A stretch of DNA of 33,395 nt from a virus: positions 1-33,395 of the IMG/VR virus record IMGVR_UViG_3300026488_000040, one strand, 5' to 3'. The position numbers and the translations under genes were made by a program. Shown here in pieces: positions 9,623 through 25,460 of this stretch (position 1 is the stretch's first letter; every line of letters begins with the position of its first letter). The notes beneath the pieces were generated by a model, which saw only the letters and a program-made list of their open reading frames with translations, was not told where the DNA came from and did not search any database.

Positions 9623-9639
9623 GACAAAAACGTCTCGAT

Positions 9640-9829
9640 GGTATCAGAAAGATACCAAATAGTAGAGTATCAGAAAGATACTAAATAGTACGGTATCAAA
9701 TTGATACCAAATAGTAGAGTATCAAATTGATACCAAGATTAAATCTTGGTATCAGAAAGATACCAACTTTTTAACTCTTAGTATCACAAAGATACTATAA
9801 AAGAACCCTATTTAGTATCTCTGTGATAC
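9640..9829. repeat. Array of seven GTATC-N5-GATAC palindromes
   Basis: Seven 15-bp sites start at 9641, 9667, 9693, 9719, 9749, 9781 and 9815. The first four are spaced exactly 26 bp apart, separated by near-identical 11-base linkers around AAATAGTA. Spacing then widens to 30, 32 and 34. Centres are AGAAA (three times), AAATT (twice), ACAAA and TCTGT. Sites 4 and 5 are joined by a further perfect palindrome (9729-9753). There are no genes from 9595 to 9959. Candidates are an operator array, a partition centromere or iterons of a replication origin. Confidence 0.9.
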
Positions 9830-9922
9830 TAAATATATAAGGATGGAAAGAAAATTACCTAATATATATGTATCTCTAAAACATCTTATTTGAATGTTTT
9901 ATATAAACTTATTTTTCGATTC

Positions 9923-9959: not shown

Positions 9960-11006
9960 TTACCAACTCTCTACAAATCCATATTTGTTTACAGTCTCTT
10001 TGTACCAGAAATCAGGAAAATATCCCATACTTGCCAGTTTCTTTCCATTGTTCAGTATATTCCTTATTCTTGTCTTGTAAGCCTTGATAGTAGATGCTTC
10101 TTTGTTATACACAGATAATTTTTCTAACACATCTTCCATATTCTTGATAATCCACTCTATCGTCTTGGTTCTTAACATCCAACCATATTTTCTTCTATGA
10201 TATTCATTTGCTATCAGAACCAACAGCCTCACATTGTATGTAGCATTGAATAAATCTCTCAACTCATCTACACTTAACAAGTGTAATGAATTCTTTTCAA
10301 GTTCTTCAAGATAAAGCTCAAATTCTTCAATCTTTTCTCTTGTTATCTCTACAACCTCTTCGTTGGTTCTGTTGATTAACTGTTCAACCATAGTCTGCTG
10401 AAGTTTGTGTTTTTTAAATTCTCTTTTATCCTTAAACGGAACAAAATCTTCAGGTATTCCCATCCTAATCAGACAGTCTGTGATATCATAAAACTCTGTA
10501 AATTCTTTACCAGGATATATTCTTTGTGACCTCATTACTATCTGATGAAACAAAGGATACGATTTAGTTGGTCTAAGGTTAATGATAGTATCTACATTCG
10601 GTGAATCGAATCCGATTGTTAAAGAAGTCACTGAAACTAATGTTTTAATCTTTCCTTTCTTGAAATCATCAATCACCTGTTGGTTCTTGTCTTTATCTTG
10701 TTTAGAGTGAACCACCTCTGCTGTTGGTTCTATCTTCTTAATCAAAGAACAGTATTCCTCTGCCATAGCAATATTGGAAGTGAAAACCAATGTTTGTCTT
10801 TTATTCAGAACCAACGATTCAGCAAACTTAACAAACCATTCTTTAAACTGCTTATCAGAGTACAGTTCTCTAATATCCTCTGCACTATAATCTGCTACAC
10901 CTTTATCAATCTTTTCAAAATCCATTGTTGTAACTATTCTTGGAATGTAATACTTAACATGTGATAAGTATCCTTTCTCTTCAGCTTCCCTTTGAGATAT
11001 AGGCAA
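9960..11006 (-). CDS. SF2 helicase, C-terminal fragment after frameshift
   Basis: This 348-codon frame continues the helicase begun at 11494. It has the second RecA-like domain: motif V-like SVTSLTIGFDSPNVDT and motif VI-like QIVMRSQRIYPGK, followed by a helical C-terminal extension of about 150 residues. The frame opens only a few codons upstream of a TTG at 11006 with no ribosome site, so it is unlikely to start by itself. Restoring one T in the TTTT run (minus strand, plus 11005-11008) would join the halves as NNTFLPISQREAEEKGYL, which reads as a normal helicase. The interruption is either a recent mutation, a sequencing error or, less likely, programmed shifting. Confidence 0.75.
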   Translation of the reverse strand: MPISQREAEEKGYLSHVKYYIPRIVTTMDFEKIDKGVADYSAEDIRELYSDKQFKEWFVKFAESLVLNKRQTLVFTSNIAMAEEYCSLIKKIEPTAEVVHSKQDKDKNQQVIDDFKKGKIKTLVSVTSLTIGFDSPNVDTIINLRPTKSYPLFHQIVMRSQRIYPGKEFTEFYDITDCLIRMGIPEDFVPFKDKREFKKHKLQQTMVEQLINRTNEEVVEITREKIEEFELYLEELEKNSLHLLSVDELRDLFNATYNVRLLVLIANEYHRRKYGWMLRTKTIEWIIKNMEDVLEKLSVYNKEASTIKAYKTRIRNILNNGKKLASMGYFPDFWYKETVNKYGFVESW

Positions 11007-11494
11007 AATGTATTGTTAAACATTTCAATTCCATTGAAATCAAAAGGAGTAGCAGTTAAACCTATCTTCTTCGTTGGTTCTAATTTATTAAGAATCAGTT
11101 TAAACCTGTCACCCTCAATTCTCTTATGATACTCATCTGCTATCAGTGCTATTTTACCAGTTGGTTCTAATTTATTGTTTTTAAGCCTGTTATAAAGCGT
11201 TTGGTCTGTTGATAGTATGATAGGACTATTTTTATCAGTTCGTTCATTATCGTTTAAGATAGACACGTTTAACGATGAATTTTTAAAATGTTCTCTCAGC
11301 TGATTAATAAGCTGAGAGATATCGCTAATAATAAACACTTGATATCCAGAACCAACAAGCTCTTTAGCAATGTGAGGAATAAGGAATGTTTTTCCTAATC
11401 CTCCCCAAAGCTCAATAACTAATTCATTCTCATCAGAACCAACAAACTCCTTGGTTCTTTCAATTACCTTTTTTTGATAACCCCTTAGTTTCAT
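10934..11494 (-). CDS. SF2 DEAD/DEAH-like helicase, N-terminal fragment
   Basis: The 186-residue frame carries the first RecA-like domain of a superfamily 2 helicase. Walker A is GGLGKT (residues 31-36), the DExH box is DEYH (120-123), and motif III-like TATP is at 147-150. It starts at ATG 11494 after AAAGGCATATA, inside the end of the preceding membrane-protein gene. About 30 residues after motif III it leaves the frame and stops at 10934 after a lysine-rich tail, while the remaining helicase domain continues in another frame. Phage helicases of this type unwind replication or recombination intermediates. The gene is dense with the GGTTCT word, with an inverted pair at 11435-11458. Confidence 0.8.
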   Translation of the reverse strand: MKLRGYQKKVIERTKEFVGSDENELVIELWGGLGKTFLIPHIAKELVGSGYQVFIISDISQLINQLREHFKNSSLNVSILNDNERTDKNSPIILSTDQTLYNRLKNNKLEPTGKIALIADEYHKRIEGDRFKLILNKLEPTKKIGLTATPFDFNGIEMFNNTFCLYLKGKLKRKDTYHMLSITFQE

Positions 11495-18326: not shown

Positions 18327-20423
18327 TTAATTATATTTTCTTTTTAAACTTGCTAATACAGTTTTTCTTAATTCCTTTTCACTGATTGGTTCTGAAAGCA
18401 TAGAGTTAGCTTTATAAAGCTCTTCTTCTATTCTTTCAAATGAACCAGTTAAATCTCCTATAAAAGAACCGAGTCTGAACAGATTGTTTGATCTGTTTCC
18501 TTCATATGTGTTATTAATGAACCATTTAATCATTCCGCCTATTCTACGATTAACTTCATCTGTGTCATAATCTTTTTCATCAAATTTCTCTATTTGTCTT
18601 TCAATTATTTCTCTCACTTCCGTATCAGGTAAATAAGGAATAACGTCAAATAATTCACCTTGTTGGTTCTTAAATATTTGGCATTCAGGATTTGTAAACC
18701 ACAACCTGTCCTGATTTCTTGTAGATACATCATAAGAACCAACGCTTAATGCTTCACAAACATTAGTTATTAGTTCTTTATGTCTTTCGTTATCTACAAA
18801 GAATTTAGTTTTTGTTGGTAAAAGTATCCTAAATCTATCACAAACTAAACCACCTTTATCTTTTTGATGTGATTTAGTTGTATAGATTAGATACACATAA
18901 TCTTTTAGTTTTTCAATGGTTTCTTGTAACGTAATACCGTTATCAACATCTATTCCTATACAGTTTTGCCCTTCAATAGTTTTATCTGATTTTCTCTTTC
19001 CATTCTCAAAATGGACTAGACAGAAGTTCGACACCTTATCTGACTTAACTAATCTTTCTACAGATTGGTTCTCTCCAAAAAATGGCACTTCCATACTGAT
19101 ATAATCAGTAGTTTTTTCTTTTTTATCAACTTTAGGAATAGATACAATGATTTTATTCAAATCAATTATAGGCATTGGTTCTATTGAAAATGTTTTTATT
19201 TTAGAACCACGCACCTGTAATACCTCATTTTTTCTGTAAGCATATTCTTCTACTAATTTTATGTCTTCATTAAATGTCATCCTATTGAATATATCGCTTT
19301 CAAGTATTTCTGATTTTGTGGCTTTTCCTAATTTTTTAATTACTCTGTATATTCTTCTATGCTGTGGTTCTACATTAAAAAGTTCTAAATTAGTACTTCT
19401 TACGCGTTTATAGAAATTATAAGCATATTCTACGTCATCGTAAGAGATTTGCTTTCTACGATTAAGTAAAGCATGTAAAGCACTTAATTTTAACAATTTA
19501 TCAAAAGAACCAACTTCTGCACTAAATCTTTCATCTTCTTTGTACTTATTGGCAAATTCTACAAGTTCATGATTGATAAGTTCAAGATATTCTTCTGCAT
19601 CTACTGTAAAATATAACTCAGGATAATTTCCTGAATCAACTATTTCTTTGATATATTTGTTTATATATTTTCTTATAAAAGATAAATCAGGCTGTTCATA
19701 ATACTCTGTATCAGTTCTTAATTGAATATCCGTTGGTTCTTGATAATAAATAAAACTTCTTCTGTATATCCCAGAACCAAGTGCTTTAGCAAAATATTCA
19801 TATACCTTTTGATCTCTTTTAAGAGAAGTAGATGAACCGAATATGAGCATATTTGAAACTATTCCATAGATGTTATCATTTATAGAAGATTTAATCACTT
19901 TACCTATAAATCTTCCATCGTAAAGCTCTTTCATTACGTTGAGATTACTATCCCTAATAACATCCATTATTTCTTCGTGAATCAAATTTAAAGAACCAAA
20001 GAAACTTTTAGATAAAGCTAAAGCTCTTAAATATAATCCCTCTTTAGTTCCTTCTATTGTGTTTTCAAAGTTAGGAATATAGTTTTTAATGTTTGTTTGG
20101 AAGCCGTCTATTGTAATTTCATCATCTGTAGGATTATTGGTATTTAGCTCATATCCTTTTGTTATTAGAGCTTTATATTTAAAATTCAAGTCTCCACCAA
20201 ATAGTTTTTTGCATTGTTCATAAACAAAACTCTTTCCTGCTGATGACGGGGCTATTGTTATTCCAAAATAGTTGATGTTGTAGAGTTTGTATTTGTATTC
20301 AACTTTTGGTTGCACAGAACCAAGCACAGATGAAAAAGTAAACCAGAAAGCATTCTCAATAAGTTCTCTTTGAGATACAAATCTTCCTTGTGAATTTATA
20401 TAATTGATGATTTGATTAATCAT
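18327..20423 (-). CDS. Helicase-primase: N-terminal ATPase, C-terminal AEP primase plus PriCT
   Basis: The 698-residue protein has Walker A APSSAGKS (residues 58-65) in a DUF3987-like ATPase region to about 350, then a winged-helix-like segment (RRIYRVIKKLGKATKSEIL). The C-terminal half looks like an archaeo-eukaryotic-type primase: GIDVDNG (D492, D494), YTTKSHQ (S518, H519), DRFRILLP, and SYDVSTRNQDRLWF (D565, R573). It ends with a PriCT-like helical segment (SEKELRKTVLASL). It should prime and perhaps unwind DNA for phage replication. Domain order is reversed relative to the usual primase-then-helicase proteins. Start ATG 20423 follows AAAGGGTAACAT. Confidence 0.82.
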   Translation of the reverse strand: MINQIINYINSQGRFVSQRELIENAFWFTFSSVLGSVQPKVEYKYKLYNINYFGITIAPSSAGKSFVYEQCKKLFGGDLNFKYKALITKGYELNTNNPTDDEITIDGFQTNIKNYIPNFENTIEGTKEGLYLRALALSKSFFGSLNLIHEEIMDVIRDSNLNVMKELYDGRFIGKVIKSSINDNIYGIVSNMLIFGSSTSLKRDQKVYEYFAKALGSGIYRRSFIYYQEPTDIQLRTDTEYYEQPDLSFIRKYINKYIKEIVDSGNYPELYFTVDAEEYLELINHELVEFANKYKEDERFSAEVGSFDKLLKLSALHALLNRRKQISYDDVEYAYNFYKRVRSTNLELFNVEPQHRRIYRVIKKLGKATKSEILESDIFNRMTFNEDIKLVEEYAYRKNEVLQVRGSKIKTFSIEPMPIIDLNKIIVSIPKVDKKEKTTDYISMEVPFFGENQSVERLVKSDKVSNFCLVHFENGKRKSDKTIEGQNCIGIDVDNGITLQETIEKLKDYVYLIYTTKSHQKDKGGLVCDRFRILLPTKTKFFVDNERHKELITNVCEALSVGSYDVSTRNQDRLWFTNPECQIFKNQQGELFDVIPYLPDTEVREIIERQIEKFDEKDYDTDEVNRRIGGMIKWFINNTYEGNRSNNLFRLGSFIGDLTGSFERIEEELYKANSMLSEPISEKELRKTVLASLKRKYN

Positions 20424-23559: not shown

Positions 23560-24441
23560 TTATTGTTTGAGTTTTAAAATCTCTGGTCTTCCATCTGAAA
23601 TAACATCAAACAGCTCATAGATATATTCTTTGTACTCTTGTTTATGTTTTAATAAATTTCTCGTTAAATCAGATTTTTTGATTTTTTGTAGATTAAAGTT
23701 ATATGTTTTTTTATTAATTTCTACAATGTAATCTCTTATTTGGTTCAATATAGCAATTTTTGATGAGACAGTTATTTTTTCACCTATATGCAAAGTAACA
23801 TCTCTTGATTTTTCAACAATAAAAGAGTCGCCATGCTGTGGTTTTTTATAGTCTGTTGGTTCATATCTTAATACAACATTAGCTATTCTCTTTTTTCCTT
23901 CTTCATTGCCCTCAAGTTTAAATTTTTTATCTGAAAGCATTTCATTGGTTCTTGTAGAATGGTCTATTATTATGCAGGATAGACTATGTTTTTCTACAAA
24001 TGATGAGAACTCATACATTTTTGAAACAAACTTTTCAGAGTTGTTTATTTCAGTAAATCTAAATATTGATGAAAAAGAGTCTATTATAAAAATAACATTT
24101 TTTTCTAAAAATCTTTCTCTGATTTTGATTAAACTTGTTAAAATATCACTTAAAGAAACATTTGTGCTTTTAGCATAAATGATTCCTTTATTTTCTACAA
24201 ATTCCTTAAATATTTTTCCGTTTCCTGCTTCTCCATCAAAATAGATTACTAAATTATTTTCATTTATATCAGAACCAACAAGCTCTGCTGTTTGATAGCT
24301 TTTTCCTGTACCTGATAAACCATGAATCCATGTAATAGAACCAACGTAGCATGGCAGATTATTTATTCTTACAGCTTCTGTTGGTTCTGTTAAAAACTCT
24401 TTATTTATTGTAGAAAAGATATTAGTTACTGCTGTTTTCAT
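23560..24441 (-). CDS. RepA/AAA_25-like RecA-fold ATPase
   Basis: The 293-residue protein has Walker A GLSGTGKS (41-48), Walker B VIFIIDSFSS (D121) and a later CIIIDHSTR, the core of RecA/DnaB-superfamily ATPases such as RepA-like helicases and Rad55-like proteins. The C-terminal 60 residues are basic and helical. It could be the replicative helicase or loader, working with the primase fusion, or a second recombinase. Start ATG 24441 follows AAGGAAAAGAA and overlaps the small RHH gene. A candidate origin lies about 250 bp upstream. Confidence 0.75.
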   Translation of the reverse strand: MKTAVTNIFSTINKEFLTEPTEAVRINNLPCYVGSITWIHGLSGTGKSYQTAELVGSDINENNLVIYFDGEAGNGKIFKEFVENKGIIYAKSTNVSLSDILTSLIKIRERFLEKNVIFIIDSFSSIFRFTEINNSEKFVSKMYEFSSFVEKHSLSCIIIDHSTRTNEMLSDKKFKLEGNEEGKKRIANVVLRYEPTDYKKPQHGDSFIVEKSRDVTLHIGEKITVSSKIAILNQIRDYIVEINKKTYNFNLQKIKKSDLTRNLLKHKQEYKEYIYELFDVISDGRPEILKLKQ

Positions 24442-24592
24442 TTCTTTTCCTTAAGTAGTATTTAGCAAGAAAATCTATTGTAGAGCTTCTTGAAGGCAAA
24501 CCGTTTTCATAAGCTATTTTTTCAAGCATTACTTTTAATTCATCTGTCATCATTACAGCGACCATTTTTTTCTTGTTTTTCTTTTTATACAT
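24422..24592 (-). CDS. CopG/Arc-type ribbon-helix-helix regulator
   Basis: The 56-residue protein has a basic N-terminus then the RHH pattern: strand KMVAVMMTDELK, helix VMLEKIAYENGLPS, and helix RSSTIDFLAKYYLRK. Such dimers bind short palindromes and usually autoregulate. The start ATG 24592 has AAAAGGATTGAAA. It is the first gene behind a perfect sigma70 promoter and overlaps the ATPase gene by 20 bp. An inverted AAACTA/TAGTTT (24655-24677) and the palindromes at 24689-24873 are candidate operators. Confidence 0.78.
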   Translation of the reverse strand: MYKKKNKKKMVAVMMTDELKVMLEKIAYENGLPSRSSTIDFLAKYYLRKRNENSSN

Positions 24593-24627
24593 TTTCAATC
24601 CTTTTTGCTTTAAGATATCATATTGTT

Positions 24628-24656
24628 ATTATATATAAATTCTATGAATTTGTCAA
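24628..24656 (-). promoter_or_regulatory. Perfect consensus sigma70 promoter
   Basis: On the minus strand TTGACA (24656-24651), 17 bp, TATAAT (24633-24628). Transcription should start near 24621 and reads the RHH gene and the ATPase operon. AAACTA (24655-24660) and TAGTTT (24672-24677) form an inverted repeat touching the -35 box, a plausible repressor site. Confidence 0.83.
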
Positions 24657-24688
24657 ACTATGACATAAAGGTAGTTTAGCAGTTAAAT

Positions 24689-24873
24689 GGGACATGTACC
24701 GAATGTACCGAAAATAGTTGGTACATTCGAAATGCCGATTTTATGGGGGTTTTGAATGTCCCGAAAGAATGAATGTCCCAAGAAAGTTGGGACATTCGGA
24801 AGCCCGAATTTTCGGGGGTTTGAGAAATGTACCGAATGTCCCTTATATTATATATTATATTTCTGGTACATTC
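24689..24873. repeat. 70-bp tandem duplication with co-varying palindromes; candidate origin or operator
   Basis: Two units, starting at 24701 and 24771, align over about 50 bp. Each begins with a palindrome: CGAATGTACC...GGTACATTCG (24700-24709/24720-24729) and GAATGTCCCA...TGGGACATTC (24771-24780/24788-24797). An A-to-C change in one arm is matched by T-to-G in the other. Each unit continues to a GGGGGTTT. Further copies of ATGTACC/ATGTCCC lie at 24689-24700, 24826-24843 and 24865-24873. An AT-only stretch follows 24843. No gene covers 24593-24891. The region is GC-richer than its surroundings and has no GGTTCT word. Confidence 0.85.
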
Positions 24874-24891
24874 ATATTTAGCACATTTCTT

Positions 24892-25257
24892 TCACTCTAC
24901 TTCAACCTCATCAAGTACTTCTTTAATCTCTGCATATTTTATTCTTTTAGAGCCAAACATCAGGTCTATAATCTTTTTAGCAGTTTCCAAATCTACAACT
25001 GAGTACTCTTCTATTCCGTATTTTTTGAATCTCTCTACCATTCTTTTGTATTCTGGATACCACTTTAAATTTGGAAACACAAACAATCTATATCCTCCGA
25101 AATGCCATTTATGAGGATTATATGTCCAATAGTTTTGATGATGATCTACGCTAAATATGGCTATCTTTGTTGGCATTTTAGTGCATTCAACTTCTAAATC
25201 AAAATCACATTCCCAGTTGTCTTCTATAAATTTTTTTAAATTTTCTGTATTGCACAT
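24892..25257 (-). CDS. Hypothetical protein, 121 residues
   Basis: ATG 25257 is chosen because AAAAGGAGTGATA precedes it; an in-frame ATG at 25290 lacks one. The sequence is rich in aromatic residues and histidine (SVDHHQNYWTYNPHKWHFGGYRLF) with a helical acidic C-terminus. I recognise no family; a small metal- or nucleic-acid-binding protein is possible. It is the last gene before the palindrome region on the upstream operon. Confidence 0.65.
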   Translation of the reverse strand: MCNTENLKKFIEDNWECDFDLEVECTKMPTKIAIFSVDHHQNYWTYNPHKWHFGGYRLFVFPNLKWYPEYKRMVERFKKYGIEEYSVVDLETAKKIIDLMFGSKRIKYAEIKEVLDEVEVE

Positions 25258-25289
25258 TATCACTCCTTTTATTTTTCTACAAAACACCA

Positions 25290-25460
25290 CTAATATTGTT
25301 TACCGTTAATCACCTGAAAACCACATTGCCTACCTCTTGGTTCTGTTTTAACAAATTCAGAACCACCCTTCCTTTCACAACGATATATCTTAATTTTCTC
25401 AACTTTATTCAAATCAATGTTATATGCTTGTATTGTGAAAGCTAAAACACAACCAATCAT
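25290..25460 (-). CDS. 56-residue hypothetical protein
   Basis: ATG 25460 overlaps the TGA of the preceding gene and has AAAAGG upstream. The product starts MIGCVLAFTIQAYN, a short hydrophobic stretch, then is basic with two further cysteines (IYRCERKGGS, GRQCGF). The dispersed word occurs in both orientations. It could be a small secreted or membrane-linked protein; the hydrophobic part is short for a signal peptide. Confidence 0.52.
   Translation of the reverse strand: MIGCVLAFTIQAYNIDLNKVEKIKIYRCERKGGSEFVKTEPRGRQCGFQVINGKQY

Follow-up and report, generated by a model that had tools for sequence, protein, structure and literature searches.

A clustered array of TGTMCC half-sites as the probable iteron array of a swappable replication module in a phage genome

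Introduction

Iteron origins are a known kind of replication origin, and several described systems combine short repeated sites with a dedicated replication protein. In the SaPI Rep-ori and SCCmec Cch2-ori systems, short iterons lie by a helicase gene and are bound by the C-terminal domain of the helicase (PMC7581432). In the PLE RepA/ori system of Vibrio phage satellites, the initiator and its iteron origin swap as a module, and the iterons are semi-palindromic (PMC8263062). The minimal replicon of pRN1 consists of an operon encoding the RHH copy-control repressor ORF56 and a replication protein, together with a palindromic noncoding origin (PMC4234260).

Here we analyze a locus in a virus sequence of 33,395 bp and 29% G+C, the whole of which we refer to as the window. 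The best matches to its terminase large subunit and to its AEP primase are proteins of large podophages (Alteromonas, Klebsiella, Vibrio and Pseudomonas), and aligning the primase against bacterial genomes identified no host. GC skew tracks gene strand and marks no origin in the window. On the minus strand, the order of elements is the 132-aa gene, the array with its AT-only tract, the dyad and promoter, the RHH gene, and the ATPase gene:

18327-20423: AEP primase gene
23560-24441, minus strand: P-loop (RecA-fold) ATPase gene, 293 aa, tentatively RepA-like
~23578-24890: extent of the swapped module; relatives L002 and L009 have a ~570-nt RepL cassette instead
24422-24592, minus strand: RHH-like protein gene, 56 aa (ATG at 24592; the ORF opens at TTG 24598)
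24628-24656, minus strand: sigma-70 type promoter TTGACA-17-TATAAT for the RHH-ATPase genes, perfect (12/12 matches)
24651-24665: dyad TGTCAAACTATGACA, also given as TGTCATAGTTTGACA, over the -35 box
24689-24873: array of ten TGTMCC half-sites (M = A/C), with the consensus GAATGTMCC in the window
24701-24728: inverted pair A, GAATGTACC-N10-GGTACATTC, arms 24701-24709 and 24720-24728
24771-24797: inverted pair B, GAATGTCCC-N9-GGGACATTC, arms 24771-24779 and 24789-24797
24826-24873: third unit, a direct pair TGTACC + TGTCCC, the AT-only tract and GGTACATTC
24843-24859: AT-only tract TTATATTATATATTATA, a possible unwinding element
24892-25290, minus strand: 132-aa gene, whose 3' end (24892) the array adjoins

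This arrangement shares some features with each of the described systems and differs from each in others. As in SaPI and SCCmec, short iteron-like sites lie beside a putative helicase gene; binding there is by the helicase C-terminal domain, but the helicase belongs to a different family, the origin is downstream of rep rather than upstream of the operon as in the window, and the SCCmec iterons are AAGTG. PLE resembles the window in the modular swap of an initiator with its iteron origin, although its initiator is of the RepA_N type and its iterons are three of ~30 bp. The pRN1 replicon likewise joins a small repressor and a replication protein in one operon with a palindromic noncoding region, but its origin is a 100-bp stem-loop located downstream and its replication protein is of the AEP-SF3 type. 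It is by analogy with these four systems that we read the array as a candidate iteron origin and the AT-only tract as its likely melting site.

Results

Structure and clustering of the array

The ten half-sites lie on both strands (plus at 24695, 24704, 24757, 24774, 24828 and 24837; minus at 24689, 24720, 24789 and 24865) in the orientation order -++-++-++-, with the variants in the order C A A A C C C A C A. All ten fall within 182 bp (24689-24870), compared with five occurrences of TGTMCC across the other 33 kb. When all hexamers were scanned in 200-bp intervals, the array words GGGACA, GGTACA and ACATTC ranked among the most strongly clustered in the window (Poisson log10 P of -8 to -10), and a higher rank was reached only by a separate array at 9.64-9.83 kb. 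As in iteron-type origins, the repeated sites are short, clustered and unique in the genome, and an AT-rich region lies beside them; this tract is present in relatives too. No DnaA box with fewer than two mismatches was found near the array.

An earlier note on this DNA had described the locus as a tandem 70-bp repeat with palindromes, surrounded by more half-sites and followed by an AT-only tract. The surrounding half-sites, the tract and inverted pairs A and B (the latter with an 11-bp stem, counting flanking AA/TT) are all borne out, but the periodicity is weak: a 69/70-bp period gives 53 and 48 matches per 120 against ~30, and is not reported by Tandem Repeats Finder. A search with a stricter repeat pattern gave no matches.

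Several other features of the window were observed. The array at 9639-9830 comprises about seven GTATC-N5-GATAC palindromes upstream of a 146-aa wHTH-like gene and is conserved (89% identical) in L002, which is without a TGTMCC array; the 9.7-kb array could be an alternative origin, a centromere or an operator. The helicase gene at 9960-11494 is represented by two overlapping ORFs, and since its counterpart in L002 is a single intact 511-aa ORF, the window has either a frameshift or an assembly error here.

We counted 111 copies of the octamer AGAACCAA/TTGGTTCT in 33 kb, where about 1.2 would be expected. Copies are randomly spaced and near-equal on both strands without strand bias, lie within and between genes (e.g. 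144, 2311, 24337 and 24381), and encode EPT or VGS in many proteins; the density in relatives L002-L009 is 2.4-3.9 per kb. A search of genomes with an AGAACCAA terminator pattern found no locus of comparable word density. A recognition sequence of the primase-polymerase of deep-sea phage NrS-1 is TTTGGTTA (PMC8718748), which has TTGGTT in common with the octamer. The octamer could be a primase start site, an uptake word or a host word.

The module gives way to RepL-type initiators in close relatives

Close relatives are 75-89% identical to the window on both flanks, with no match between 23578 and 24890. In L002 and L009 this slot encodes a 151-aa RepL-family protein (PF05732, E 7.5e-8 and 3.1e-6), whereas no RepL is present at 23560-24598 of the window. 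A close homologue of this protein is found in L004, while L003 has a different wHTH protein that matches phage O-like initiators (E 1.9e-6), and L007 has a protein that looks RepL-like by eye and is preceded by two palindromic tandem repeats of 22 bp. Because RepL, wHTH and RepL-like proteins occupy it in L002, L009, L003 and L007, we consider this to be a slot for replication initiators. In the window the same slot holds the RecA-fold ATPase operon beside the array, with a weak RepA match (hhalign 33%). Since relatives carry a RepL cassette instead, we assign the array to a swappable replication-initiation module, with which it comes and goes. The exact window cassette was in no relative found.

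The RepL modules of L002, L009 and L004 resemble that of the window in having an AT tract (TATAATATATATATTATA, similar to TTATATTATATATTATA and in the same place) and a promoter whose -35 box is covered by a dyad, in the same slot in L002 and L009. They differ in encoding a wHTH RepL in place of the RHH-ATPase pair and in lacking a TGTMCC array. Upstream of RepL, both L002 and L009 have the AT tract, the promoter with its own dyad, and a motif resembling CCCGTATTTTCGGG. The operator dyads at these two promoters differ although they are in the same place (TGTCATAGTATGACA at L002 6160-6215, TCCAGTCTCACTGGA at L009 4030-4090), which may be a sign of changing repressor specificity.

The RHH-ATPase operon and the operator alternative

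The RHH gene does exist, although support for its assignment is weak: its product matches the Arc-like profile phrog_582 (E 3e-4) and is predicted to form two helices (18-30 and 37-56; pLDDT about 90), with fold matches that include CopG, Arc and pRN1 ORF56, all at E>1. The ATPase gene overlaps it by 20 bp. Walker A (GLSGTGKS), GEAG, IIDS and IDHST of the ATPase align to profile A4, built from helicases linked to TGTMCC arrays in other phages, with an hhalign probability of 33% (P 5e-4). The motif order is that of RSF1010 RepA, but homology is weak; Pfam AAA_25, the family of RSF1010 RepA, gave E 0.28, there was no match to 1g8y, and a match to RadB (E 8.5e-6) was below cut-off. The structure model of the ATPase was poor (pLDDT 38) and unusable, and no relatives of the protein were found in viral contigs, phages or plasmids. 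The earlier placement of the array upstream of a RepA-like ATPase operon holds for its position, and the RepA-likeness is only tentative.

The proximity of the RHH gene, which starts 97 bp from the array with the promoter in between, raises an alternative in which the array is only an operator: cooperative binding of RHH dimers to the half-sites would regulate the promoter and operon, with no role in an origin. RHH proteins do use short half-sites in arrays. Yet the array stops 33 bp short of the -35 box on its upstream side and leaves it uncovered, while a separate dyad covers it. Where other phages carry this word, moreover, different small regulators (Cro/YdaS-like) precede rep and the array is at the opposite end of the operon. 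We consider a purely regulatory array to be rather unlikely.

Half-site variants do not covary

Both strands of the array fold unusually strongly (z of -5.1 and -6.7), and inverted pair B, read on the minus strand (24797-24771), is the sole terminator-like match near the array; both fit a structured RNA, or a transcription terminator for the 132-aa gene ending at 24892. The strong fold on both strands can be attributed to the inverted sites, as any DNA palindrome would fold in this way, and neither Rfam nor tRNA searches gave a match. The earlier note had further proposed that both palindrome arms change together and that pairing or palindromic symmetry is therefore selected. This does not survive comparison of adjacent inverted half-site pairs, which carry the same variant in only 2/6 cases in the window, 0/7 in the unrelated phage L136 and 1/3 in L137. 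We rejected compensatory covariation of the arms on the basis of discordance in 4/6 window pairs (e.g. GGGACA|TGTACC at 24689-24700) and 7/7 in L136. The two concordant hairpins are a chance outcome when two variants of one site mix, and the variants appear to behave as interchangeable versions of one putative protein-binding site. Compensatory stem changes, as a structured RNA would show, are not seen, and the failure of covariation counts against an RNA, as does the recurrence of the word as half-sites with variable spacing in both orientations. An RNA or terminator is accordingly improbable.

The same word recurs beside replication genes of unrelated phages

Scanning viral contigs for site combinations revealed dense TGTMCC arrays in unrelated phages of 29-72% G+C. 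Their neighbors include genes for Toprim-RepA (L140, L158), PrimPol-RepA (L154), DUF3987 (L145) and PriCT_2-DUF5906 helicase (L136) proteins, and in L146 and L159 the array lies inside an O-like wHTH gene. L158 and phage 1N2-2 (L171) appear to be one genome, given their identical array sequence, and were counted once. A second viral scan recovered at least 80 array loci, and the fractions given here refer to the 80 loci listed. Among these, 21/80 have an RSF1010-RepA-like helicase gene, and in 21/21 the array is 0-121 bp from this gene on its 3' side, where random placement expects 5.5; 36 of the 80 are terminase-linked, mostly similar prophages, and 23 are other. Profile A4 of the array-linked helicases finds RSF1010 RepA (1g8y) at E 3.7e-18, and these helicases are clear relatives of that hexameric enzyme. 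RSF1010 itself has a separate initiator, RepC, and longer iterons.

We also performed a test that is independent of the array, in which we took named phages and plasmids that encode a homologue of the L140 helicase and ranked all hexamers by clustering. In six elements the top clustered hexamer begins within ~40 bp of the rep stop codon: TGTCCC in Salicola phage CGphi29, ct3Oc712 and a Xanthobacter plasmid element, TGTACC in Idiomarinaceae phage 1N2-2, and TGAACC in Alteromonas phages XX1924 and PB15. Two capsid-gene plasmids have other words at the same place (TGCGGC and AGTGGG), and no array was found in ct76p945 or by the distant prim-pol helicases of mycobacteriophages and Gordonia, Nocardia and Caulobacter phages. 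In ct3Oc712, two TGTGGATAA DnaA-type boxes follow the array. We conclude that part of this family commonly carries iterons immediately 3' of its RepA-like helicases, with TGTMCC as a recurrent word. We found no description of this word in the literature searched, whose coverage left out most subscription papers.

The terminase-linked group keeps alive the alternative that the terminase small subunit binds the array as a site for packaging. A Nu1-like TerS or TerL gene is near the array in 36/80 loci listed, and in several RepA-type phages terminase genes are 1-2 kb away; however, in the window TerL is 6.4 kb from the array, arrays linked to RepA sit close against the rep stop codon (21/21 among the loci listed), and such an array is also present in a plasmid element that has no terminase gene within 3 kb. 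We regard packaging as a very improbable function here. The prophage TGTCCC arrays near Nu1-like TerS or TerL genes (L206, L263, L194 and about 33 similar loci) could be either packaging sites or origins.

A dispersed chromosomal (REPIN-like) palindrome caught in a phage is hardly credible, since the one Bacillus genome with 29 matches to GGGACA-rich palindromes is set against a single locus in the phage, absence of the GAATGTNCC site from near relatives L002-L009, and no RAYT-type gene seen. The matches in that genome (G002, L184-L193) are to palindrome GGGACAnnGGGACAGGTNNNNTGTCCC, a dispersed REP-like repeat.

Discussion

Where the earlier note had left a choice between replication origin, operator and structured RNA, we favor an origin, on account of the replacement by RepL-type modules in close relatives and the like arrays beside RepA-like helicases elsewhere, while the failure of the covariation argument speaks against the RNA. 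Most probably, the array serves a phage replication origin as its iteron cluster and forms the cis part of a swappable module made up of array, promoter, RHH protein and RecA-fold ATPase. Several observations count against this: the array precedes its operon in the window instead of lying 3' of the ATPase gene, and 36/80 array loci listed are terminase-linked prophages. To these we add the tentative RepA assignment and poor structure model of the ATPase, the want of this cassette in the relatives found and of a DnaA box near the array, a GC skew that marks no origin, and the array at 9639-9830, which L002 conserves without this module and which could be the origin instead. Given the upstream position and the weak RepA-likeness, what is transferred from the other phages to the window is inferred and is not a claim of membership.

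The binding protein, melting and origin activity are what we infer for this locus. A protein encoded in the module, be it the ATPase, the RHH protein or the two together, would bind several TGTMCC half-sites and help to melt the adjacent AT-only tract, the ATPase would act as a helicase or load one, and the AEP primase would then prime. The RHH protein would probably also repress the operon in CopG-type fashion; it may act at the dyad as an autorepressor, or it may be the protein that binds the array.

It is possible, and we propose it only tentatively, that TGTMCC arrays form one widespread, unnamed class of phage origin, shared by RepA-like, PrimPol, DUF3987 and O-like initiators and recognized by a common type of domain or even by a host factor that is conserved; the window would then be a divergent form with RHH and RecA-fold ATPase proteins and mixed A/C half-sites. 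The general TGTMCC pattern merits a systematic survey. The origins of most metagenomic phages are unknown, hence the use of an origin-marking word: a short word marking the 3' end of RepA-like helicase genes would allow direct origin prediction and tests of reader proteins. The swap of RepL and RHH-ATPase modules in otherwise similar phages would offer a natural experiment on modular origins.
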